Translations under genes and position numbers: made by a program
The notes under the pieces: model-generated
The model's input: the letters and a program-made list of their open reading frames with translations, nothing else
Told to the model about the DNA's origin: nothing
The model's database searches: none
Shown: positions 11,283 to 23,276 of the stretch, piece after piece
Position numbering within the stretch: position 1 is the stretch's first letter
How the letters are laid out: the number at the start of each line of letters is the position of its first letter
DNA from: an uncultured Prevotellaceae bacterium
GTDB taxonomy: Bacteria; Bacteroidota; Bacteroidia; Bacteroidales; Bacteroidaceae
DNA length: 64,000 nucleotides
Assembly (NCBI GenBank): GCA_949299545.1
Contig: CASGAM010000023.1
Coordinates: 124,001 to 188,000, forward strand
Direction of reading: 5' to 3'

Positions 11283-12593
11283 TCAGCCCTTCCATCCCTG
11301 CGGAAAGCGAATCGTGAAGCGCGTCCAGCCGTCCTCACCGGTTTCCAGCGAGAAACGGCAACCGTGACGGTCTAATATCTCGCGCACCAACATAAGCCCG
11401 ATGCCTTGTCCGTCAGGCTTGGTGGAAAAGAAAGGCGTGAAGAGTTTCTCTTCATCATCTTTTGCAATGCCGCTGCCGTTATCCGCGATCTCTACCACGG
11501 CCGGATTACCGCCCGAACGGATGATGATCTCACCGTCCGCGCCGATGCTTTCGGCTGCATTCTTCACGATGTTGACCATCACCTGTTCAAAAAGGATGGG
11601 ATCCAAACGCACTTCGGGACCATCTCCGTCAGAAAGAATCTGCAAACGAATGTTCCGCCGACGACAGGCATCCTCCATCAACAGCCGGCAGGCGTCTATG
11701 CGACTATTCAGCCGAACCGTCTGCAAATGCGGCTCGGGAATGCGCACGATGTCGGCCAGCCGGGCAATGAAACGGTTCATGCCGTAGCAACGGTCGGAAC
11801 AGACCCGTATGATATGCCCCAAGTCACCCGTTTCGTCATACGGACTGACGATCTCGCCCAGCGAGTCGAGAGTAGAGGTTACGGCCGCCACACTGTTGTT
11901 CACCTCGTGGGCAATCATGCGGATAACTTTCTCATACGTCTTCTTCTCCGCCTTCACAATCTCAGAAGTCAGACTCTCTATCAAGAGGAACGGATGAGCG
12001 TAACCCCGGTCAACAAACGAAAGATGAGAACAGCGGTAAATCATCGCATCGCTCAGACGCACCGTCTCCACGCTGCCGGGCGGCAAACCGGCCAGCCGGG
12101 CAGCCAGGGGTGAAGACAGTTCGCCCAACAGGCGGCCAGTGACCTCGCTTTCCCCCATATTACCGAGGAAACCAAGCGCAGCCGCATTGGCGCCTGTTAT
12201 CCTGCGGTCAAAGTCAAAAAGGATAACGCCCATGGGCGACACCCGTATGAGTAAATCCAGAAAATGATTCTGTTCCCTGACGCGGAGGCGCTCGTTCTTG
12301 AGTTGCTCCATCAGCTTGTTGAAAAGATCCACTATGCGGTCGGCATCCTGCTGCCCCACATGAGCCAGCCGGCTGCTGAAATCCTGTTCGTTGAGCAAGT
12401 CCATGGCATTACCGATGGTATGCAGGGGCTTGACGGCCTTGCGGTAAAAATAATATAAGAAGAGAAGGCAGACCGCCACCGCGCTTTCCGCCACATAAAA
12501 AGCCGTCCCCGAAGGCGGCAGTAGGATGAAGAACAGAGCGCCGAGGGCGCAGAGCAACAACATCCAGACGATGAACAACCATTTGATGCGCAT
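11283..12593 (-). CDS. NtrB-like sensor histidine kinase
   Basis: A 436-residue inner membrane kinase. Two membrane helices at about residues 5-25 and 32-50 enclose only a very short periplasmic loop, so it probably senses something within the membrane or cytoplasm. A HAMP-like segment (about 52-105) and a PAS-like domain (about 108-205) follow. The phosphoacceptor His229 lies in MIAHEVNNSVAAV, a HEVNN H-box typical of NtrB/AtoS kinases that pair with sigma-54 regulators. The ATPase domain has the N box (NIVKNAAESI), G1 (DNGSGI), F box (FTPFFSTK) and G2 (GQGIGL). It is the last gene of the efflux operon, 3 bases after its cognate response regulator. Confidence 0.93.
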   Translation of the reverse strand: MRIKWLFIVWMLLLCALGALFFILLPPSGTAFYVAESAVAVCLLFLYYFYRKAVKPLHTIGNAMDLLNEQDFSSRLAHVGQQDADRIVDLFNKLMEQLKNERLRVREQNHFLDLLIRVSPMGVILFDFDRRITGANAAALGFLGNMGESEVTGRLLGELSSPLAARLAGLPPGSVETVRLSDAMIYRCSHLSFVDRGYAHPFLLIESLTSEIVKAEKKTYEKVIRMIAHEVNNSVAAVTSTLDSLGEIVSPYDETGDLGHIIRVCSDRCYGMNRFIARLADIVRIPEPHLQTVRLNSRIDACRLLMEDACRRRNIRLQILSDGDGPEVRLDPILFEQVMVNIVKNAAESIGADGEIIIRSGGNPAVVEIADNGSGIAKDDEEKLFTPFFSTKPDGQGIGLMLVREILDRHGCRFSLETGEDGWTRFTIRFPQGWKG

Positions 12594-12596
12594 GTG

Positions 12597-14000
12597 TCAA
12601 TAAGTTTTTTCATCCGCCGGAGACAAGTCGTCGCCAGGATGTATGTGGTATTTCTCCATCCGGCGGTAAAGCGCGCCACGGCTGATACCCAACGCAGCCG
12701 CCACTTGTGAAAGGTTGCCGCCAAATTGCCGGATGGTTTGTGTGATGGTCTGTCGCTCCACCTCCTCCAAAGTAAGTCCCTGCAAAGCAGTTGCGGCAGC
12801 TGCCGGCAAATCGCCGGCCGGGACAGCCTTGTATTGGCTTTGAAAATCGTCCGCTCCCAGTTCCCTTTTGCCGGACACCAGGACAGTCCGTTCCACAAGA
12901 TTCTTCAGCTCGCGGATATTACCCGGATAGGGTAACGACATCAGGAAGCGCATGGCATCCGGCTTGACGGACACGGGGTCGAGCCTGTATTGCCGGCATT
13001 GCCTCTTTATGAAATGTTCTGCCAGCAACGGTATGTCTTCCCTGCGTTCGCGCAAGGCCGGCAGGCGTACCGTAATCAGATTGATGCGATAGAACAAATC
13101 CTCACGGAAAGAGTGGTCGCGTATCATCTGACGCAAGTCGGCGTTTGTGGCACTGACGACCCGCACATCGGCCTTCCGCTGGCGGCTGTCGCCCAACACC
13201 TCGTAAGTCTGGTCCTGCAGCACACGCAACAGTTTGACCTGGCAAGCCGGATCCAGATCACCTATCTCGTCCAGGAAAATGGTGCCTTTCTCAGCCAACT
13301 CGAAACGCCCGGTACGGTCGCTCACGGCATCCGTGAAAGCCCCCTTTCTGTGACCGAACATCTCACTCTCGAACAGGGTCTGCGATATGCCGCCCAGGTT
13401 TACCTTGACAAAAGACTTGCCGGCACGCAGGCTGTTGCGATGGATGGTTTCGGCTATCAACTCCTTACCCGTTCCGTTCTCACCGGTAATCAGCACGGGA
13501 GCATTCGTGGCGGCTACCCGTCGCACCACTTCCAGAACCTCTTCCAACGCTTCGCTATGCCCTACAATCAGGCTGCGGTCGAACGTACCGTCACCACCGC
13601 CCGCTGCCGGTTGCCCTGCCGCAGTTGTCCCGCCGTTCAGTTCCAGCGCTATCCCCACCCGTTGCATCAGCACCAGATTGTTCCATGGCTTGGTAATAAA
13701 GTCGAAAGCGCCCGCCTGCATCCCTCTCACGGCTAATTCGATACTGCCCCATGCCGTCATGAGAATGACGGGCACGTGGGGCAAGGCGACCTTCATCCGT
13801 CCCAACAGGCGAAGGCCGTCGGCGCCATCGGTAGAGATACCGAAATTCATGTCCATCAGTATCAGCTGCGGCGTCATCTCGCGGATGGCCGCCATCGCCT
13901 CCGAAGGTCCCGGAACGGCAACCGCTTCCAGGCCGCTCCGCTTCAACAGGAAAGTGAGCGACGAACGAATCGCGTTGTCATCATCTATCACTAATATCAT
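12597..14000 (-). CDS. NtrC-family sigma-54-dependent response regulator
   Basis: A 467-residue activator. The receiver domain (1-118) has the acidic pocket Asp6-8, phosphoacceptor Asp50 (LILMDMNFG) and Lys104 (FITKPW). The AAA+ domain (about 147-375) has Walker A GENGTGKE (173-180), the sigma-54 contact loop as GAFTDA (220-225) instead of GAFTGA, Walker [11 protein letters not shown] (241-250) and arginine-finger region [11 protein letters not shown] Fis-type helix-turn-helix closes the protein (about 412-452, with [20 protein letters not shown]). It activates sigma-54 RNA polymerase when phosphorylated by the kinase encoded next. Its likely target is the sigma-54 promoter at 22797-22812 in front of its own operon, with the palindrome at 22856-22873 as enhancer site; this is inferred from position, not shown. 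Confidence 0.95.
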
Positions 14001-14023: not shown

Positions 14024-15580
14024 TTATCGTACAATCTGCTCAAAATCGGCGTCAATGTTCGTCTGCGCCGCAAAATCCCACAACGTGATGCTACGTATCT
14101 GGTAATAATAATACCAATAGCTGAACAGTTCGTTGATACATTTGCGACGCGCATCATCCTTGCTGCTTTGCGCGTCATTCAGGTCGAGCGTACTGATGCG
14201 ACCGATGAGAAACGTTTCCATGTTCGTACGGTAACGCCGCTGCGCGATGGAGTCGGCCGCAATGGCGATGTGCAGCTGGTTAACCTGATTGTTAAACTGT
14301 TCGGTCAGCACGAACAGGCTCTGGTTGAAATCGGTAGCCTCTTTACGCAACTGCTGGCGCACCACCTCACGGTTGCTTTCAGCCACTTTGACCTGGCCGC
14401 GCCGCTTGCCCCAGTCAAGCAACGGGATTCGCATGCCGACTTCTACCACCTGATTGTCTTTCAACTCCCGATAGGCATTGTCAAACACATTGTCGGAACC
14501 TGTAAAACCGACCTGCGCATAGAGTGAAACCTGCCGGCGGTTGCCTTTGGTCTGCGCCACATAATAGTCGGCTTCCAACTGGCGCCGCCGTATGTTGTAA
14601 GAGAAAGCGTTGTTGGCCAATGCCTTTTCAAGCACCTCGTCGTAATTGAGTTGCAGCGACGGTACCTCGTCGGGCAGTACGGGTATCAGCTCATCCACAT
14701 TGTCCAGCGCCAAATATGAACACAACGAGAACATCTGCGACCTCAGGCTGCTTTCGCTGGAAGTCAGCGACGAACGGGCATTCAACACGTTGAGCCGTAA
14801 CTGCAGCAGGTCATTCTCGCTGATGCGCCCCATGCGCCGTTTGCTTTCGGCCACCTCGCACAGTTTCTCCGCATTCTGCAAGTTCTGTCGGGCGATGGTC
14901 ACATTCTCGCGTGCCAGCAACAGGTTGAAAAAATATTGTATGACGGTCATCGTCACCTGTTCGGTAGCGGTCAGGAAGTTGGCTTGTGCTTCGGCGTAAC
15001 GCAACGGCTCGATGCGCCGGTTCCACTTCACGGTGTTCACACCGAAGATGGGCTGGTTCAGGGTCAGCACTACCGGTACGGCCATAAACTGGCGCCCGGC
15101 CTTGCCGCCTCCGAGTTGCGTCATGAAATCGAGCGATGTGCTGAGCGAAAGCGTACCGCCCGTAAACCAAATGCTCTGGTCGATGGAAAGCGCCCCGTTA
15201 AGGCTCATGTAATCGTTCCGCACGTAGGTGTGCGAACCGTCGCTCTGCTGATAGACACTGTAGTTCTTGCGATAGCTGGGCATGGTCGTTGAAAAGTTTA
15301 CTTCCGGCAACAGGTTGGCACGGAATGTGCGGTAGCTCCAATAGGCCGACTTCAACTGTCCCAAGGCCGATGCAGCGTCCACGCTCTGCTTGCGTGCCAG
15401 GGCAATGGCCTCGGGCAACGTAATTGTACGGGTCGCCCCTTCTCCAGCTGCCGACGGGCCGGCCACCGACAACAGGACACACGCAAGCAGGAACACGCGG
15501 AAGCGTTCTGAAAAAAATGAAAAATGAAAATAGTTCGTCATAACATGAATGCTCATTTGTTTTATGGAATGCCCTGCCAA
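14024..15580 (-). CDS. TolC-family outer membrane efflux protein
   Basis: A protein of about 505-518 residues with OEP repeats: TLPEAIALARKQSVDAASAL near the N-terminus, then long helical segments with QNLQNAEKLCEVAESKRRMG and NDLLQLRLNVLNARSSL. The second repeat has GMRIPLLDWGKRRGQVKVAE and FLIGRISTLDLNDAQ. It should form the outer membrane and periplasmic tunnel through which the ABC pump expels its substrate. The open frame starts at 15580, but the in-frame ATG at 15541 (MTNYFHFSFF) puts a normal signal peptide (cleavage near GPSAAGEG) at the N-terminus and is the likelier start. It lies downstream of the four permeases and the ATPase in the same operon. Confidence 0.93.
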   Translation of the reverse strand: MAGHSIKQMSIHVMTNYFHFSFFSERFRVFLLACVLLSVAGPSAAGEGATRTITLPEAIALARKQSVDAASALGQLKSAYWSYRTFRANLLPEVNFSTTMPSYRKNYSVYQQSDGSHTYVRNDYMSLNGALSIDQSIWFTGGTLSLSTSLDFMTQLGGGKAGRQFMAVPVVLTLNQPIFGVNTVKWNRRIEPLRYAEAQANFLTATEQVTMTVIQYFFNLLLARENVTIARQNLQNAEKLCEVAESKRRMGRISENDLLQLRLNVLNARSSLTSSESSLRSQMFSLCSYLALDNVDELIPVLPDEVPSLQLNYDEVLEKALANNAFSYNIRRRQLEADYYVAQTKGNRRQVSLYAQVGFTGSDNVFDNAYRELKDNQVVEVGMRIPLLDWGKRRGQVKVAESNREVVRQQLRKEATDFNQSLFVLTEQFNNQVNQLHIAIAADSIAQRRYRTNMETFLIGRISTLDLNDAQSSKDDARRKCINELFSYWYYYYQIRSITLWDFAAQTNIDADFEQIVR

Positions 15581-15601: not shown

Positions 15602-16852
15602 TCACTCATCGTGCAGTGAATCCGTCGGTGACTTACGGCTGATCCCCCAGGCCGGAATGCAAATGCCGACACTCACCACCAAAGCGGTCAACAGCCAGAC
15701 CATGGACATGATGACGGCAAAGTGCAACTTGAAGTTCTCATACCAGTAATGGACAAACTGACTGCAGTTTCCGTTATCCGGCAAGAAAAAACCTTCATGA
15801 AGCGCATATTGCAGATAAATAACACTCCCGGCCGTCACGGCAACCGTGGCCAGTACAAGCCCTTCGCTTACAAACAACCCGACGACTCCGGCCGACGTAG
15901 CGCCGAAACTCTTCATGATGCCGACTTCTTCGCGCCGGCTCCGGGTCTGCATCCAGAAGGCACCTGTAACCCCGAAGAACAGGCAGAAAAGAAAGAAAGC
16001 CATCAGAAGCATATTGATCCTATAATCGTAATCCATCTGGATAGTACTCCGTTTCACGTAGTCTTCATAAGAACTCACGCTCTGCACAAAAAAGTTGCCC
16101 GCGCAAAGCGTTTTCTGAACCCACGGACGAAACTCCGAAAGAAAATCTTCCGCATCAATACCCTCACGCAAACGGAATACAATGTTTGCATCTTCAGGAT
16201 GCCGTTGTCCGAAAACGACTTGTTGGGGCGCCCGTTCGGGACGCACTTTTATGGGTTGAACCGTAGCGATGACCCGTACTTCTTTGCCTTCTAAAATAGA
16301 CCTCCCCAATGTCGGTCCGTCCTCAAATGCGCCTTCGGTCATAATCTTTTGTTTTTGAAATCCCATCGAGTCTATTTCCGCTATCGAAGGACCTCCTGCC
16401 GACTGAAAACGGTAAGTCTTGAAATAATCGCTCTGAGGGACATATTCCAGACAAAACATCGTTAGCATGACAGAGTCTTTAAAAAAATTAAAAGCGCTTG
16501 ATGACCAGGAGGCTCCTCCCGGGGCAAAATCCCCCATCTGAAAAGAAGCTGACTCCACACCGGGATAATGGCGCACCTGTTCCAATAACCGCCATTTGAC
16601 CGAACGCCGGTTTTCCAACTCATCGGCATCCCGACTGTAAAAAGAAGACGAGGACGGATAAGTGGACAACTTGATGAGGAAAAGATTTTCCTTATCATAT
16701 CCGTCCGGCAAAAGGTTCACATACGTTTGCACCACCAACGGGTCGACAAAGTGCCACAGGATGATGCTGACCGCCACCAGTTCGGCCAACAGCCAACCGT
16801 TGCGTTTCTTCTTTGCCCACAGATTCTTAAAAACCAAACGTATCATACTCAT
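15602..16852 (-). CDS. FtsX/MacB-type ABC permease, second copy of the ~415-residue type
   Basis: A 416-residue permease. One N-terminal membrane helix (about residues 20-40) is followed by a large periplasmic MacB-like core domain (about 45-280). Three C-terminal helices (about 282-305, 325-350 and 378-402) form the FtsX domain. The cytoplasmic coupling region RSRREEVGIMKSFGATSAGV is the signature that contacts the ATPase. The C-terminus (ISRKSPTDSLHDE) and N-terminus (NGWLLAELVAVSI) closely parallel those of the gene at 18945-20192, so these are paralogues from a duplication. It begins directly after the stop of its partner permease (no spacer), supporting a permease pair. Confidence 0.9.
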   Translation of the reverse strand: MSMIRLVFKNLWAKKKRNGWLLAELVAVSIILWHFVDPLVVQTYVNLLPDGYDKENLFLIKLSTYPSSSSFYSRDADELENRRSVKWRLLEQVRHYPGVESASFQMGDFAPGGASWSSSAFNFFKDSVMLTMFCLEYVPQSDYFKTYRFQSAGGPSIAEIDSMGFQKQKIMTEGAFEDGPTLGRSILEGKEVRVIATVQPIKVRPERAPQQVVFGQRHPEDANIVFRLREGIDAEDFLSEFRPWVQKTLCAGNFFVQSVSSYEDYVKRSTIQMDYDYRINMLLMAFFLFCLFFGVTGAFWMQTRSRREEVGIMKSFGATSAGVVGLFVSEGLVLATVAVTAGSVIYLQYALHEGFFLPDNGNCSQFVHYWYENFKLHFAVIMSMVWLLTALVVSVGICIPAWGISRKSPTDSLHDE

Positions 16853-18157
16853 TTATTTTTTCTGGTTCAACGAATATACAATCTCCGCCTTCAATGCATT
16901 CCAGGCCGGAATGAGGGCCGATACCACATTCAGTACCGCACACACCAAAAAGGCCGACAGAAATATCCACGGAGAAAAAAGCATTTCGCCCCTTAACAAG
17001 ACGTCATCCGTGTTTTCCGTAAAAATATAAAAGCCGGGACTGAAGAAATCGAACACCCAATGGCGTCCCCATACCAATACGCACCACGAAATCAGCAAAC
17101 CGAAACATCCGCCTATCAATGTCAGCACCAGATTCTCGCCCATCACCTGACCGAGCAAATGCCGGCGGGTGGCTCCGAAAGCCTTGCAAACGCCCATCTC
17201 GGAGAGACGCTTTTCCATGCGTCCGGCAATCATGCCGCTCAGGTTAAGCGCCGGAACAAGAAGAAACACGATTAGCAATCCGCCAAAGATTCTGAGCGAT
17301 TTAGCCAACTTTTCATCTTCTCCCCCACTATTTCCGGCGATATTCGCCCGCCAGCTTTTGTAGGGCGTTTCTACAAAGACATGTTGCTCCTCATCGTTTA
17401 CGTTGACCTGACGCATCCGTTCCTCTATCTCCGCCTGTATCTGCCGGCCATTATCCTCGGACGCCCGTATGCAAACCTTATAACGGCCGCACACATTGAA
17501 AGGGTCAGGAATCTCTGTCTCTTTCAGACAAGTGTAAGGCGTGTAAACCTGCGCATAGGCTCTCGGCGTGAGGCTGCTGGCATCGCGCACCACACCTGTC
17601 ACCACATAGTCGGTGAGATTCATCCAGATCGTTTTGCCGACAGCCTCCTCAGCGCTGCCGAACAACTGTCCGGCCAACGACGCCGCAATCACGGTACAAT
17701 ACCGGCCGCTGTGAAAATCTGCTTCGGTGAAAGGCTTGCCCGCCAGAAATTCAAAATTGAATACCCGGAAGAAGTCCGTGTCGGTTGCCATAACCTTGAC
17801 AACTCTCATGTTTTTGCCATCGGGCAACTGTACGAAGACATCATTAAAACATTGTAAAGCCGTCACATGACCATACTTCCGGAGCGGATAAAACCACTCC
17901 TTGACGGTACGCAGAGAGATAGCTCCCGCAGAGGACATATAGGAGCCGTTGGCCGTATTGACGAACTCTGCCCGTTCAGACACCCACAGTTCGTCCCTGT
18001 CATACTCGGGATAGATGGATCCGACACGGATATACTGGAACGTGATGACAATCATCGTCAGCGCCACCGGTATGGCCGTCCCGATGATGTAGAGCGTGCC
18101 GAACAGCCGGTCCTGCCGCAACAACTGCCAGGTCTGTTTTATATATCGCTTTATCAT
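16853..18157 (-). CDS. FtsX/MacB-type ABC permease, second copy of the 434-residue type
   Basis: A 434-residue permease with an N-terminal membrane helix (GTAIPVALTMIVITFQYI, about 27-44), a MacB-like periplasmic domain and three C-terminal helices. The coupling segment is EKRLSEMGVCKAFGATRRHL and the C-terminus reads LIPAWNALKAEIVYSLNQKK. The N-terminus KRYIKQTWQLLRQDRLFGTL is nearly the same as in the gene at 20198-21502 (same length), so this is a paralogue. It lies 55 bases after the ATPase gene and is immediately followed by its partner permease. Confidence 0.9.
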   Translation of the reverse strand: MIKRYIKQTWQLLRQDRLFGTLYIIGTAIPVALTMIVITFQYIRVGSIYPEYDRDELWVSERAEFVNTANGSYMSSAGAISLRTVKEWFYPLRKYGHVTALQCFNDVFVQLPDGKNMRVVKVMATDTDFFRVFNFEFLAGKPFTEADFHSGRYCTVIAASLAGQLFGSAEEAVGKTIWMNLTDYVVTGVVRDASSLTPRAYAQVYTPYTCLKETEIPDPFNVCGRYKVCIRASEDNGRQIQAEIEERMRQVNVNDEEQHVFVETPYKSWRANIAGNSGGEDEKLAKSLRIFGGLLIVFLLVPALNLSGMIAGRMEKRLSEMGVCKAFGATRRHLLGQVMGENLVLTLIGGCFGLLISWCVLVWGRHWVFDFFSPGFYIFTENTDDVLLRGEMLFSPWIFLSAFLVCAVLNVVSALIPAWNALKAEIVYSLNQKK

Positions 18158-18212: not shown

Positions 18213-18890
18213 TCAGTCCACCTGTCGTCCGTCGAAGAAATGGATGGTTCGAGAAGAGAGGCGTGCCTGCTCTTCGTTGTGCGTCACCATGACGATGGTG
18301 CGGCCGTCTTCCTTGTTCAGGCGACAAAGAATGTCCATCACCTCCGCGCCCATCTTGGAATCGAGGTTACCCGTAGGCTCGTCGGCCAGGATGATTTCCG
18401 GGTTGCCGATGATGGCACGGGCGATGGCCACGCGCTGGCATTGTCCGCCCGACAGTTGCGAAGGCATGTGCTTCATGCGGTGGGTCAGCCCCACACGTTC
18501 AAGAACCTCTTTGGCGCGCCGCGTGCGTTCGCTGCCGGACATCTTGCGGAAGATGAGCGGCAGTTCCACATTGTCGAGTACGTTCAGCGTGTTTATCAGA
18601 TGGAACGACTGGAAGACGAAACCTAACATGCGGTTACGGAAGGCGGCCTGCTGGCGGTCGCTCATCTTCGAGGAAACCGGCGTACCGCCTAATTCCAAAG
18701 TACCGCTGGTGGGGTTGTCTAAAAGTCCGATGATGTTCAGCAGTGTGGACTTGCCGCAGCCTGATGGACCCATCACACTCAGGAACTCGCCTTTTTCCAC
18801 CGTCAGGTTGACGTTCTCCAAAGCCTGTGTCTCGATTTCGTTTGTGCGGTATATCTTGTTGATACCGGTCAGTTGAATCATGTTGTTCAT
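18213..18890 (-). CDS. ABC transporter ATPase (MacB/LolD type)
   Basis: A 225-residue ATPase. Walker A is GPSGCGKST (41-49), the Q-loop lies in FVFQSFHLINTLNVLDNVEL, and the signature motif is LSGGQCQRVAIARAI. Walker B with D-loop is IILADEPTGNLDS, and the H-loop is VTHNEEQA. It belongs to the class that drives MacB/LolCDE/FtsX-type permeases by mechanotransmission, not by carrying the substrate through a channel. It is the only ATPase in an operon with four permeases, so it presumably powers both permease pairs, or one pair depends on an ATPase elsewhere. Confidence 0.95.
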   Translation of the reverse strand: MNNMIQLTGINKIYRTNEIETQALENVNLTVEKGEFLSVMGPSGCGKSTLLNIIGLLDNPTSGTLELGGTPVSSKMSDRQQAAFRNRMLGFVFQSFHLINTLNVLDNVELPLIFRKMSGSERTRRAKEVLERVGLTHRMKHMPSQLSGGQCQRVAIARAIIGNPEIILADEPTGNLDSKMGAEVMDILCRLNKEDGRTIVMVTHNEEQARLSSRTIHFFDGRQVD

Positions 18891-18944: not shown

Positions 18945-20192
18945 TTATTCGTCATGCAGCGCGTCGGTCGGCATGATGCGGCTGATGTTGCGTGCCGGGA
19001 TGCAGATGCCCGTACAGGCCACAACGGCCATCACAAACCATGTGGCCAATGAAACGACGAGGAAATGGGTTGTGAAATGTTCGAACCAGTAGCGCCCGGC
19101 TAACAATCCCGGCAAATTACCTCCAAAAGCGTCCGCCGGTGTGTAAAGTCCTGCTTTCATGGCATATTGCAAATAAATGAAACAACCTAACAAGACTGCA
19201 ACGGTCGTCAGTATGAGACCTTCCGTAATGAGCATGCGCATAATGTAGCCCGACGTGGCACCGAAACTCTTCATAACACCAATCTCCTCCCGCCGGCTGT
19301 CGGTTTGCATCCAGAAGGAACCGGAAATTCCGAGAAAGAGGCAAAACAGGAAAAACGCCCCCAACACCGTGCGCGATTGCAGAAATGTGGCCACTTCGGT
19401 ATTCCCGTCGTCAATATACTCGCTGTATGTCTGTACGGCACCGGCATAATAATTGCCGGCCTTGAGCTGCTTCCCGGCCCAGTCCGCAAAAGCCTCCCGG
19501 AAGGCCTTCCCGTCCATATTGTCGTCGGCACGGAACACAATGGCCTCTGCCTGCATGTTCGGCTGCGGGCATATTCTGACAGGAACGGCCGGTATGCCGG
19601 GGCGTATCCTGACCATGCCTGTGGTAGCCACGACCTTTGTGCCGGACAACGTATCGACCAACCCCATGGTGGTCCGCCCGGGAAACGTCCCCTCGCTCAT
19701 GACCACACCGCCATCCTCGAATGCCATCCGGTCGAGGTCTGCGCGACCCAACCGTCCGCTCTCGGAGAAACGGAATGTCGTGAAGAAATCGCTCAGCGGC
19801 ACAAACGCGATATCATAGACTGTAGAACCCAAAGTGTCGCAGTTGACATAAGCCGAAGCACTACTCTGAGAAAAAGGAGCAATGGAACTTTCAAAAGTGG
19901 CTGAAGCCACGCCCGCATAGTCGCGTACCATCCGCAACAGGCGCCAGCGGTCATCACGCCATTGTTCTTCACTCCGCTTTACAAAGCGGGGCGAGTTCCA
20001 AGGTTGCTGTCTCAACTCTATCCGATAAAGATGCCGCACTTCAAAACCTTTGTCCTGCCTCTCTACGGCATTTTGCACAATTATCGGATCGAGCAACGCC
20101 CATACCGCCATGGTAACAATCACCAACTCGGCCACCAACCACCCGAAACGGGCTTTGCGTGCCGATAACATTTTGAACATCATTCGCCACAT
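18945..20192 (-). CDS. FtsX/MacB-type ABC permease, first copy of the ~415-residue type
   Basis: A 415-residue permease: N-terminal helix (GWLVAELVIVTMAVWALLD), periplasmic core, then three C-terminal helices. The coupling segment is DSRREEIGVMKSFGATSGYI and the C-terminus ISRIMPTDALHDE. It is paralogous to the gene at 15602-16852. Five bases separate it from the upstream 434-residue permease, repeating the pair order seen on the other side of the ATPase. Confidence 0.9.
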   Translation of the reverse strand: MWRMMFKMLSARKARFGWLVAELVIVTMAVWALLDPIIVQNAVERQDKGFEVRHLYRIELRQQPWNSPRFVKRSEEQWRDDRWRLLRMVRDYAGVASATFESSIAPFSQSSASAYVNCDTLGSTVYDIAFVPLSDFFTTFRFSESGRLGRADLDRMAFEDGGVVMSEGTFPGRTTMGLVDTLSGTKVVATTGMVRIRPGIPAVPVRICPQPNMQAEAIVFRADDNMDGKAFREAFADWAGKQLKAGNYYAGAVQTYSEYIDDGNTEVATFLQSRTVLGAFFLFCLFLGISGSFWMQTDSRREEIGVMKSFGATSGYIMRMLITEGLILTTVAVLLGCFIYLQYAMKAGLYTPADAFGGNLPGLLAGRYWFEHFTTHFLVVSLATWFVMAVVACTGICIPARNISRIMPTDALHDE

Positions 20193-20197
20193 AAGTC

Positions 20198-21502
20198 TTA
20201 TCTTTTTTGATTAAGGGATTCCACAATAGGTTTACGCAACGTTCTCCAGGCCGGCAGCAATGCAGAAACAATGTTCAGCACGACACAGAACAGGAAAGCA
20301 CAGATGAAGATGCGCGGCGAGAAGAGCATCGACGGAGTAAAAACAATGTCTACGCCATCGACCTGCAACGTCCGGTAAGGATCGAACATGTTAAGAACCC
20401 ATTTGCTTCCTAACGTCAGCACACTCCACGAAAGCAACAGGCCGAGTGTGCCGCCGGCCAATGTCAACAGCAGATTTTCGCGTATGACCTGCCGCAACAG
20501 ATACCCTTGCCCGGCACCGAATGCCTTGCAGATGCCCATCTCCGCCCGGCGGCTCTCCATGCGGTTGGCAATCATGCCGCTCAGGTTCAGAGCCGGTACC
20601 AGGAGGAACAACAGCACCAATCCGCCCCAGAGCAGAGCAATCTCCTGCACATCCACCTCGCCGTTGCCCATTTTCAGGTTGCGTTTCCAGGCCGGCATGG
20701 GGCCGCCCAGTTCTATGCTGTCACCTTCTGCGGCGTGCGCCAGATTGTATTTCCGTACCAGTTCATTGATGTCGGCCAGCATGCGGCGCGCCTGTTGTTT
20801 ATCGGTCGTACGGAAACAGGTCGTGAAAGGACCGGTGAGACTGCCCGTCTGCTGATCCAACTGGTCATAATCGGGCAGACAGGTGTACGGCTGATAGACC
20901 TGTCCGAACGACAATGGCGTCAACGTACTGGCGTCGCGCACCACACCGGCCACGACATAGTCGCGATAATTCATCGTAAAATGACGGCCTGCAGCCTGCT
21001 CCGTACCGAACAGGCGGCGTGCGGTGGAAGCTGCCAGTACGGCACTGCACCTGCGACTCTGGAAATCGGTTTCCGTAAACGGTCCTCCGTCGACAAATCG
21101 GAAATCGAACACTTTAAAGAAAGCCGGATCCGTGGCCTGGCATTTCACCATCAGCTCCGACTCTCCGTCGGGCAACTGGATGGCATAGGGGGGAAGACGA
21201 TAGTAATAGATAGCTGTCACGGCTTCGGCAGACTGGAGGGGGTAGAACCATTCCCGTATCATCTGCAAGGAACAGGCGCCACCCCTCATTCCGCCGTTCG
21301 GAAAAAAGTTGCCCACGCTCTTCAGTTCGTAGAGGTTGTCACGATGCAGTTCCGGATACACCGGGGAGATGCGGATGTGGTAATACATCACCACCACCAT
21401 CGTCAACGCAACGGGTATGGCCGTGCCCGCAAGATATAACGTACTGAAAGTCTTGTTCTGCCGCAACAACTGCCAAGTCTGTTTGAAATAACGTTTCATC
21501 AT
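20198..21502 (-). CDS. FtsX/MacB-type ABC permease, first copy of the 434-residue type
   Basis: A 434-residue permease with N-terminal helix (GTAIPVALTMVVVMYYHI), MacB-like periplasmic domain (about 50-285) and three C-terminal helices. The coupling segment is ESRRAEMGICKAFGAGQGYL; the C-terminus is LLPAWRTLRKPIVESLNQKR. It is paralogous to the gene at 16853-18157 and lies 12 bases after the membrane fusion protein gene. Confidence 0.9.
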   Translation of the reverse strand: MMKRYFKQTWQLLRQNKTFSTLYLAGTAIPVALTMVVVMYYHIRISPVYPELHRDNLYELKSVGNFFPNGGMRGGACSLQMIREWFYPLQSAEAVTAIYYYRLPPYAIQLPDGESELMVKCQATDPAFFKVFDFRFVDGGPFTETDFQSRRCSAVLAASTARRLFGTEQAAGRHFTMNYRDYVVAGVVRDASTLTPLSFGQVYQPYTCLPDYDQLDQQTGSLTGPFTTCFRTTDKQQARRMLADINELVRKYNLAHAAEGDSIELGGPMPAWKRNLKMGNGEVDVQEIALLWGGLVLLFLLVPALNLSGMIANRMESRRAEMGICKAFGAGQGYLLRQVIRENLLLTLAGGTLGLLLSWSVLTLGSKWVLNMFDPYRTLQVDGVDIVFTPSMLFSPRIFICAFLFCVVLNIVSALLPAWRTLRKPIVESLNQKR

Positions 21503-21514
21503 ATTGTTCCTTTT

Positions 21515-22762
21515 TTATCTGATTTTTAATTCCGGCTGCTTCTTATAAAGGCTCATGTCGCTGACAACCACCCGGTCGCCCGGCCGAAGCCCTTCAAGCA
21601 CTTCCACATGGTCGAAATCGCATTCGCCAAGGTTGACTTTCCGCTTCACCAGGCGGTCTTTCTCTTCTTCAACAAACAAGTCGTATTCTCCCGGCCCGGC
21701 ATAAAATGACGCGTTTTTAATGCGGACGGCATTCTCATTCATGGTCTGTACCACATAAATGTCAGCCTTCTGTCCGGAACGCATCTGCCCTTTCCGCACC
21801 TCGTCGGGCTGCACGACAAAACGGTTCACGCCGTCCGCGCTCAGCGGGTCTGCCTGCACCACCGTCCCGGTGAAGACCTTGTCGTTGATGCGGACCAACA
21901 CCTTGCCACCAAGGCGGACATTGGCGGCATACCTGTCGGCAATCTCGCTCTCGATCTTGAAATGATCCAGGTCGGACACGGTTGCCACCTGTTCACCTTG
22001 CGCCACGCGGGCGCCCACTTGCGTGTTGATGTATGTCAGCACCGCCTTGTGGGGCGAAAGGATACGGGCATCTTCGAGCGTCCGTCTGGTCTCCTCCATC
22101 TTCTTCAGGAAAATTTCCATTTCCAGCATCTTCACTTTCATATCGGCCTCACGCACCATCTGTTCGGTCTCATACCGTTGCTTGAGTTGTTCCAGTTCCA
22201 ACCGGGCGGTGGTGTAAGCAAACTCGGCCTGCCTCACCTGGTCGGCCGTGCCTGAACCGAGACTGTCGAGATGCTGTTCATTGTGATAGTCCACCAGCAA
22301 GCGGTTGAGTTTCATCTCCGATATTTTGATTTGCATGGCCATGTCGCTCAGAGACGTTTTCGTGTTGATGACCTGTTGCTCCATCTGGTAGCGCTTCATC
22401 TTCTCCTCGTTCTGCAAGTTGCGGTACTCGTTCTCGATGCTCTGCAAATCGAGTTTCAAAAGCGGCGTGCCCACGTCCACACTGTCTCCGTTGCGGCAGT
22501 ACACCTCCACGATGCGGGTGTTGATGGGCGAGTTGATGACTTCCTCGAAGGCCGGCACCACTTTGCCGTAAGCACTGATACTGGCTTCAATCACGCCGCT
22601 GTCGACAGTGCAGATGGTTATTGACGAGCGTTTTATACTGCTCTGGAGGGTATTGAGAACCATGATAATGCCGCCGATGACCACAACCGCCGCCATGCCC
22701 ACCTTGATGGTCGTAATCAACCGCCTGCGACGGATTTCACTTTTAGGTATGTTTCTGTCCAT
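21515..22762 (-). CDS. HlyD/MacA-type periplasmic membrane fusion protein
   Basis: A 415-residue adaptor. A single N-terminal membrane helix (about residues 20-40, VGMAAVVVIGGIIMVL) anchors it. A split biotinyl-lipoyl-like domain follows (SAYGKVVPAFEEVINSP, about 68-84), a long alpha-helical hairpin (about 105-220), the second lipoyl half (ILSPHKAVLTYINTQVGARV), a beta-barrel domain (DLDHFKIESEIADR) and a membrane-proximal domain (EVLEGLRPGDRVVVSD). It bridges the inner membrane permease to the TolC-like protein encoded in the same operon. As first gene of the operon it lies about 24 bases after the predicted sigma-54 transcription start. Confidence 0.92.
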   Translation of the reverse strand: MDRNIPKSEIRRRRLITTIKVGMAAVVVIGGIIMVLNTLQSSIKRSSITICTVDSGVIEASISAYGKVVPAFEEVINSPINTRIVEVYCRNGDSVDVGTPLLKLDLQSIENEYRNLQNEEKMKRYQMEQQVINTKTSLSDMAMQIKISEMKLNRLLVDYHNEQHLDSLGSGTADQVRQAEFAYTTARLELEQLKQRYETEQMVREADMKVKMLEMEIFLKKMEETRRTLEDARILSPHKAVLTYINTQVGARVAQGEQVATVSDLDHFKIESEIADRYAANVRLGGKVLVRINDKVFTGTVVQADPLSADGVNRFVVQPDEVRKGQMRSGQKADIYVVQTMNENAVRIKNASFYAGPGEYDLFVEEEKDRLVKRKVNLGECDFDHVEVLEGLRPGDRVVVSDMSLYKKQPELKIR

Positions 22763-22796
22763 TCTTGTCTTTATATACGTTTACGTTTCTTAACGG

Positions 22797-22812
22797 TGCA
22801 AAACCCGTGCCA
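22797..22812 (-). promoter_or_regulatory. sigma-54 promoter of the efflux operon
   Basis: On the minus strand the site reads TGGCAC-GGGTT-TTGCA. This is an exact match to the sigma-54 (RpoN) consensus TGGCAC-N5-TTGCW, with GG at -24 and GC at -12. The predicted start of transcription is near 22786, leaving a leader of about 24 bases before the ATG at 22762. The same operon encodes an NtrC-type activator, which independently supports the call. Confidence 0.88.
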
Positions 22813-22855
22813 AAATCTGAAACAACTGTTTATCAGCAATTTGAATTTCCAAAGG

Positions 22856-22873
22856 GTGTCCGAAAACGGACAC
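22856..22873. promoter_or_regulatory. palindromic enhancer site, probably for the NtrC-type regulator
   Basis: A perfect inverted repeat: GTGTCCG (22856-22862), AAAA spacer, CGGACAC (22867-22873). Its centre lies about 78 bases upstream of the predicted sigma-54 start site, a normal place for an NtrC-family dimer. A third GTGTCCG half-site follows at 22875-22881 with a poorly matching partner, possibly a weaker second dimer site. Binding by the regulator encoded at 12597-14000 is inferred. Confidence 0.7.
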
Positions 22874-23065
22874 TGTGTCCGTTTGGAGAACAGAAACAAC
22901 ACGATTCTCCCACCCCCATGCAGCCGTAACCGTAAAACGAACCGGTTTCCTGTTTTTTGAAACCGCACTGCTTCCCGTCAGAAAGTGTGATTTACCTTTT
23001 TCGCGATACAGCCGACAACGCATAAAGTCCTCAAAAAGAGGAGAAAAGTCGCTCTAAAAAAAGCG

Positions 23066-23145
23066 AGCGGTCGCAGCATTTTTTGCAAGCGGTCGCAGCA
23101 AAAATTACAAGCGGTCGCAAAAAATGCTGCGACCGCTTGTAATTT
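23066..23145. repeat. cluster of three direct and one inverted GCGGTCGCA repeats forming hairpins
   Basis: AGCGGTCGCAGCA occurs at 23066-23078 and 23088-23100, AGCGGTCGCA at 23110-23119, and the reverse complement TGCTGCGACCGCT at 23125-23137. The last two sit in a perfect 18-bp inverted repeat (23102-23119 with 23128-23145, loop of 8). The first copy can instead pair with the inverted copy over 18 bases, including the T6/A6 tracts, so alternative hairpins compete. Read on the minus strand, the stem is followed by a run of T, so it could end transcription from the TonB receptor gene about 130 bases upstream. It could also be a REP-like dispersed element. Confidence 0.75.
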
Positions 23146-23276
23146 CCACTGCCCAATCACCTGTTCTCCGGGATCGGCAGAAATAAGAATTTTTATAAAA
23201 GATTTTCAATTTCGAAGATATTGCCGGTAAGAAGCCGACAAACACACCGGAAAACGGGAGACAAGCCGTTGCGTCA

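Follow-up and report, generated by a model that had tools for sequence, protein, structure and literature searches.

A probable sigma-54 promoter with a closely spaced proposed enhancer ahead of a tripartite ABC exporter operon that carries its own NtrC-family regulator and kinase

The window, by which we mean the whole analysed stretch of 64,000 nucleotides, carries nine minus-strand genes behind a sequence that matches the -24/-12 promoter of sigma-54 RNA polymerase. The genes are separated by gaps of 12, 5, 54, 55, 0, 21, 23 and 3 bases and encode the parts of an ABC exporter with an outer-membrane channel, followed by a response regulator and a sensor kinase (Table 1). A preliminary description of this DNA had recognized an ABC efflux operon whose last two genes include one for an NtrC-type activator, and the Pfam domains bear this out.

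Table 1. Features of the exporter operon and its upstream region, in window coordinates
Feature	Position	Strand	Basis
Overlapping second palindrome CGGACAC-T-GTGTCCG (third half-site)	22867..22881	.	Inverted repeat I5, 22864-22884
Proposed enhancer (UAS) palindrome TGTCCGTTTTCGGACA, starting at -86	22857..22872	-	Conserved palindrome in orthologues
IHF-type box AAACAGTTGTTTC, degenerate, 7/9 positions, -45 to -33	22819..22831	-	Family column frequencies
-24/-12 promoter TGGCAC-GGGTT-TTGCA	22797..22812	-	Sequence read and motif scan; conserved in orthologues
Predicted transcription start (+1)	22786	-	Arithmetic: 12 bases past the C of the GC box (22798)
HlyD-type membrane-fusion (adaptor) protein, first gene	21515..22762	-	Pfam HlyD_D23, HlyD_3
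FtsX/MacB_PCD permease	20198..21502	-	Pfam
FtsX permease	18945..20192	-	Pfam
ABC ATPase	18213..18890	-	Pfam; among named models DarD and LolD score best, both below cut-off
Second FtsX/MacB_PCD permease	16853..18157	-	Pfam
Second FtsX permease	15602..16852	-	Pfam
TolC-type outer-membrane channel (OEP)	14024..15580	-	Pfam
NtrC-family response regulator: receiver, sigma-54 AAA+ with GAFTDA loop, Fis-type HTH	12597..14000	-	Pfam
Sensor kinase: two membrane helices, 6-residue loop, weak PAS, HisKA (HEVNN), HATPase_c	11283..12593	-	

In each permease pair, a MacB-type periplasmic domain is present in the first member. Between 15602 and 21502 there is one ATPase gene for two permease pairs, and the number of pairs varies among orthologous operons. 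The TolC-type gene is listed with a TTG start, and its true start may lie further in. A division of the operon by intrinsic terminators or sigma-70 promoters was considered and set aside, the counts being at shuffle level and uninformative; terminator-like sites on both strands between 10500 and 23400, for example, number 15 as against 15.5 in shuffled sequence.

The promoter, TGGCACGGGTTTTGCA, is read on the minus strand from 22812 to 22797 and agrees at 11 of 11 scored positions with the sigma-54 -24/-12 consensus. The GG at -24 and the GC at -12 stand at the correct spacing, and TGGCAC is followed by G, which is also the consensus base. From the predicted start at 22786, a leader of 24 bases reaches the ATG of the adaptor gene at 22762. 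The preliminary description had reported the exact match TGGCAC-N5-TTGCA and a leader of about 24 bases, and was right in sequence, strand, coordinates and distance; the UAS palindrome at 22857-22872 and the IHF-type box at -45 to -33 had escaped it.

The number of -24/-12 matches is less telling than their location. No other exact match lies in the window, and with at most one mismatch there are 2 matches where 2.69 are expected. A genome scan for further sites, as the preliminary description had proposed, gave two exact copies among the matches listed, which is close to our own chance estimate of about 2 per genome (equal base frequencies assumed); with at most one mismatch, the matches listed comprise 107 for the forward motif and 76 for the reversed pattern. 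The bare motif is not rare, and its count on its own is little proof. As to location, the scan was more rewarding, in that both exact copies lie just upstream of an ABC-exporter operon, with leaders of 24 and 25 bases to its first gene, and an NtrC-type regulator adjoins the operon in each case. A chance match was rejected because conservation and position carry the promoter, which the count alone does not do, and it is this context that makes a sigma-54 promoter at 22797..22812 convincing from sequence.

The genome encodes RpoN (TIGR02395, 381.7 bits against a cut-off of 277.35), together with sigma-54 activator genes that give five strong and two weak matches. Three of the five strong activator genes adjoin exporter operons whose intergenic sites score 11, 11 and 10 of 11. 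The assembly is 79% complete, so further sites or regulators may be missing from it. An activator of 416 residues on contig C6 (L042:8786-10036) has a GAFTGA loop and a start that runs straight into the AAA+ domain, apparently with no receiver. By eye it lies in a same-strand gene run just before putative lptE and secG, and no intergenic -24/-12 site scoring at least 9 is listed in its 20-kb stretch.

Upstream of the promoter, the proposed enhancer has the form TGTCCG-N4-CGGACA and is the sole perfect copy of this UAS in the genome among the matches listed. On sequence evidence it is an activator site at a usable distance from the promoter. The IHF-type box of the window is weaker than that of the family, with two of nine positions deviating. 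Six HU/IHF-family stretches are encoded in the genome, five of them over the cut-off. At 23048-23152, between the enhancer and a TonB-dependent receptor gene, a 28-base unit recurs in four related copies spaced by 22 bases, and strong inverted repeats are present there around AAGCGGTCGCA.

The same elements were sought in relatives. A search of 301 family genomes found the adaptor in 83, spanning 15 of 30 genera, and DNA was fetched around the 82 others. Two of the 83 loci (L142 and L150) were dropped for upstream sequence that was too short; 59 of the remaining 81 passed a filter on the -24/-12 score, and one of these (L157, with TolC upstream and no linked regulator) was dropped, which left 58 rows. 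Although chosen by -24/-12 score alone, all 58 carry an upstream palindrome TGTYCR-N4-YGRACA, a degenerate pattern written after inspection of the rows' columns; it starts at -87 in 41 rows, at -86 in 15 and at -85 in 2, compared to 0.06 rows in shuffles. The rows are related sequences, so these and the following row counts are not counts of independent events. The IHF-type pattern W[AT]TCARN4TTR is matched in 43 of the 58 rows, exactly at -45 and at no other offset among 94 aligned bases. This pattern, likewise relaxed after the columns had been inspected, is matched at 8 or more of its 9 positions by 53 rows, versus 0.1 in shuffles. The strict E. coli IHF consensus, WATCAAN4TTR, is found in 17 rows, also at -45 alone.

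Choosing loci by gene order leads to a similar picture. Among adaptor-first loci, 58 of 59 have the composite of UAS and -24 box no more than 250 bp from the adaptor, and the one exception (L108) is a single base off the palindrome pattern. The 22 loci in which TolC immediately precedes the adaptor all lack the composite ahead of the adaptor. In 20,000 random 250-bp windows from the same loci it was met 57 times, a figure that can include real internal copies.

For 20 of these 22 TolC-upstream loci (L156 and L159 omitted), the region before TolC was fetched. Seventeen were non-controls, of which L136 shows no regulator as its contig ends, and three were controls that lack a linked regulator. 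Of the 17, 7 have the composite before TolC under the strict pattern and 11 under the relaxed one; none of the three controls has it. The other 6 of the 17 have no composite; several show, by eye, permease-like sequence before TolC, so the operon may begin further upstream there.

Likewise, a collection of named organisms that overlaps the first set yielded 80 loci, reduced to 76 distinct upstream regions by the removal of one that was too short and three duplicates; the composite is present in 74 of them, L194 and L244 being without it. The closest relatives in this collection, with 59-61% identity, are assemblies of Paraprevotella; the composite is also found in Phocaeicola vulgatus ATCC 8482 and Bacteroides fragilis. 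Among the matches listed, 126 of 399 family genomes contain the composite, with 4 reversed-pattern matches in those rows. The order-wide figure is 19 of 393 genomes, which include 4 members of this family, and the reversed pattern is once more matched 4 times. Beyond the family, f105 stands out with two to four composites per genome in three of four genomes listed, and f26 with one composite each in three of five listed; order-wide composites beyond these two may be background. These comparisons give good support to a sigma-54 promoter as the driver of this ABC exporter operon, the last two genes of which encode its own NtrC-family activator and kinase, and the arrangement of promoter, enhancer and exporter appears to recur in many related gut bacteria.

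The receiver, sigma-54 AAA+ and Fis-type domains place the regulator in the NtrC family. Its AAA+ loop reads GAFTDA where the family has GAFTGA as its signature; among 47 regulators (the window's own included), GAFTDA was read in 31 and GAFTGA in 5. GAFTDA is listed among variants expected to stay active in the part of PMC4641369 considered here. The partner had been described as an NtrB-like kinase, of which the kinase stands and the NtrB-like sensor does not, given a score of 55 bits against NtrB model NF008293 (cut-off 240) and an N-terminal membrane hairpin. NtrB itself is a soluble kinase. The best named models, AtoS and ZraS, likewise score far below their cut-offs. A nitrogen-type NtrB/NtrC pair was ruled out by the model scores and the hairpin layout of the kinase, and no sign of a link to nitrogen was seen.

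In intramembrane-sensing kinases a loop of fewer than 25 residues connects two membrane helices, and neither a periplasmic nor a cytoplasmic sensory domain is present. As judged by hydropathy only, the window kinase has such a hairpin, with a 6-residue loop and no periplasmic domain. By the same measure, the loop is 4-10 residues long in 37 of 45 kinases, the window's own among them, and fewer than two helices are called in the other 8; a third hydrophobic stretch near residue 111 is called in 4 of the 37 hairpin kinases. A stretch FY..E is conserved within the hairpin. The subsequent order of domains, at E values up to 0.01, is HAMP (33/40), PAS_8 (37/40), HisKA and HATPase. The PAS_8 domain of the window kinase reaches 20.2 bits against a cut-off of 21.8, and no HAMP match is listed for it. 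With cytoplasmic PAS and HAMP domains in most relatives, these kinases depart in this respect from the intramembrane-sensing class. In one orthologue (L154, genome G138) a single membrane helix is called; its locus has both promoter and UAS. By eye, the kinases of the two paralogous exporter modules likewise start with a short hairpin, and a kinase on contig C25 that has no adjoining exporter begins with a long putative periplasmic part. The lack of a periplasmic domain and the neighbouring exporter suggest sensing via the membrane or the transporter, a mode reported for the kinase BceS and its transporter BceAB (PMC6978683). Most likely, the kinase reads the state of the membrane or the transporter itself, and cytoplasmic sensing through the PAS domain is also possible.

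We consider it highly probable that these parts form a self-contained and self-amplifying sigma-54 exporter module, with an RpoN promoter, a linked regulator bound at the UAS and an IHF-type bend. In such a module, RpoN-RNA polymerase would sit in a closed state at 22797-22812 until a signal stimulates the kinase, which would then phosphorylate the NtrC-family regulator. The regulator would bind the TGTCCG palindromes, which span roughly -71 to -98, and a bend at the IHF-type box would bring it to the polymerase and allow the promoter to open. The entire operon, from the adaptor through the two permease pairs with their one ATPase and the TolC channel to the regulator and kinase, would be transcribed as a unit. 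Because regulator and kinase lie inside the transcribed operon, the system would amplify itself. The exported substrate is possibly a peptide or an envelope-active compound.

Among 40 orthologous adaptor-first operons with TolC and the regulator downstream on the same strand, 8 carry a second composite before the TolC-regulator-kinase genes, as is expected if the regulator genes are under the control of their own regulator. In one of them (L085) the second composite overlaps an open frame yet precedes the likely start codon. Several orthologous operons have another composite shortly ahead of the ATPase gene. The second composites are supporting evidence for autoregulation and lend comparative weight to the feedback loop, which we infer. 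An arrangement in which regulator and kinase have a separate promoter, located ahead of TolC or within it, so that the operon is autoregulated only in part, seems unlikely: TolC-regulator gaps are large in some orthologues (596 and 418 bases, for example, with start codons guessed), but the gap in the window operon is 23 bases, and the internal composite before TolC, where found, is again of the sigma-54 type.

The closed loop had already been put forward in the preliminary description, and it gains from the second composites; as a general rule it does not hold. The regulator is divergent in 5 of the 83 loci. Extension of 20 long loci to about 31 kb, or to less in two that reach a contig end, left 9 with neither regulator nor kinase within the stretch, among them G219, G289, G269 and G245. 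Also among the nine are G074, where the pair lies just past the extended stretch, and G252, where another contig carries it, preceded by a composite of its own. Another regulator may therefore use the UAS in loci with a divergent or missing regulator, and to judge from these gene orders the feedback loop is not universal.

The genome has two more exporter modules, on contigs C17 and C30, each with its own regulator, a sigma-54 site and a different enhancer type: the C17 palindrome is TGTCTA/TAGACA with a 5-base spacer, and that of C30 is of the CGCACG/CGTGCG type. Thirty TolC homologues per module were fetched from among the matches listed. A site scoring at least 9 is present in 16 C17-type and 20 C30-type loci, a few of these sites apparently inside genes, and mostly absent from loci of more distant homologues. 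Where TGGCAY-N5-TTG is found, the module's own type of palindrome occurs in the preceding 110 bases in 14 of 15 C17-type and 21 of 24 C30-type loci, and the UAS of the window operon in none of these. The C17-type palindrome varies among relatives and resembles the window UAS except in spacer length; the IHF-type box is less regular in both groups. With an own palindrome type for each and the window UAS in neither, every exporter module seems to have a private enhancer.

In some genomes of the Bacteroidaceae, composites of sigma-54 site and UAS also precede genes for DUF3836 and DUF2807 proteins (L343-L360). Eighteen such off-operon regions were fetched, and ten first genes scanned against Pfam gave DUF3836 in four, DUF2807 in four, an FtsX permease in one and a thioredoxin-like protein in one. 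No DUF3836 match was found in the source genome (79% complete assembly), and no paper connecting DUF3836 with Bacteroides among the open-licence literature. Such composites suggest that one regulator may serve many sites. They bear, as do the nine extended loci that have promoter and UAS with no regulator or kinase, on the possibility that the sigma-54 promoter is real and a different NtrC-family protein activates it, with the linked pair acting elsewhere or modulating and no closed loop. We hold this to be improbable, since every one of the genome's three exporter modules is accompanied by a regulator and has a UAS type that differs from the other two, 8 of 40 operons carry a further composite ahead of TolC-regulator-kinase, and for two of the nine exceptional loci the pair was located nearby or behind its own composite. 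Very improbable is a housekeeping promoter that mainly transcribes the operon beside an incidental -24/-12 match: counts of the motif are at chance level in the window and near chance for exact genome copies among the matches listed, but promoter, UAS and IHF-type box are conserved at fixed spacing.

The predicted sigma-54 exporter module has traits in common with several known systems. In the classical nif, psp and glnA promoters of the sigma-54 class, an enhancer and an IHF-type bend site precede the -24/-12 element. The order is the same here; unlike in those promoters, the enhancer is close (-87 to -85), at near-invariant spacing in 58 of 58 rows, and the IHF-type box is fixed at -45. The operon resembles MacAB-TolC in its MacB-like permease domains, adaptor and TolC, but has a separate ATPase and two permease pairs, and the NCBIfam MacB model scores far below its cut-off. 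In Bce modules the permease is of the FtsX type, the regulator is of the OmpR type, and the kinase has a pair of membrane helices separated by a very short loop. In BceRS-BceAB of Bacillus, according to the part of PMC6978683 considered here, the ABC transporter acts upstream of the kinase and regulator that induce it. The window operon is similar in its FtsX-type permeases and short-loop hairpin kinase. It differs in that its regulator is of the NtrC rather than the OmpR type, that sigma-54 is used, that the exporter is tripartite with TolC, and that the kinases carry PAS and HAMP domains in most relatives; a contact between transporter and kinase is hypothetical here.

A computational survey (PMC12316311, PLoS One 2025) predicted sigma-54 promoters before genes for FtsX-type ABC permeases (COG0577) in Bacteroidia, claimed the first link of sigma-54 to ABC-type antimicrobial-peptide permeases, and placed such promoters generally before activator genes and their kinases as well. 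In the parts of that paper considered here, no UAS, IHF site, operon-borne regulator pair or kinase architecture is described for these transporters. The link between sigma-54 and FtsX-type ABC transporters is thus already published; what is added here is an apparently autoregulated NtrC-type module on a tripartite ABC exporter. In the open-licence literature, little was found on the role of sigma-54 in gut Bacteroidota beyond this one survey, and nothing else on the arrangement of promoter, enhancer, IHF-type box and kinase.

A broader and tentative reading, which we think has a lesser chance of being correct, is that sigma-54 in Bacteroidaceae is mostly devoted to transporter-sensing exporter modules, with coupling between hairpin kinase and FtsX permease, private near-rigid enhancers, and, in some genomes, exported DUF3836 and DUF2807 proteins driven from the same enhancer. 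If true, this would be a sigma-54 counterpart of the flux sensing of Gram-positive Bce systems. The module described above is in itself a precise and testable proposal: promoter, enhancer and bend have fixed coordinates, a regulator and a kinase are linked to the exporters that are their predicted targets, and DUF3836 and DUF2807 are further candidate targets of unknown function. It also offers a Gram-negative system for asking whether a transporter can be the sensor for its own kinase.
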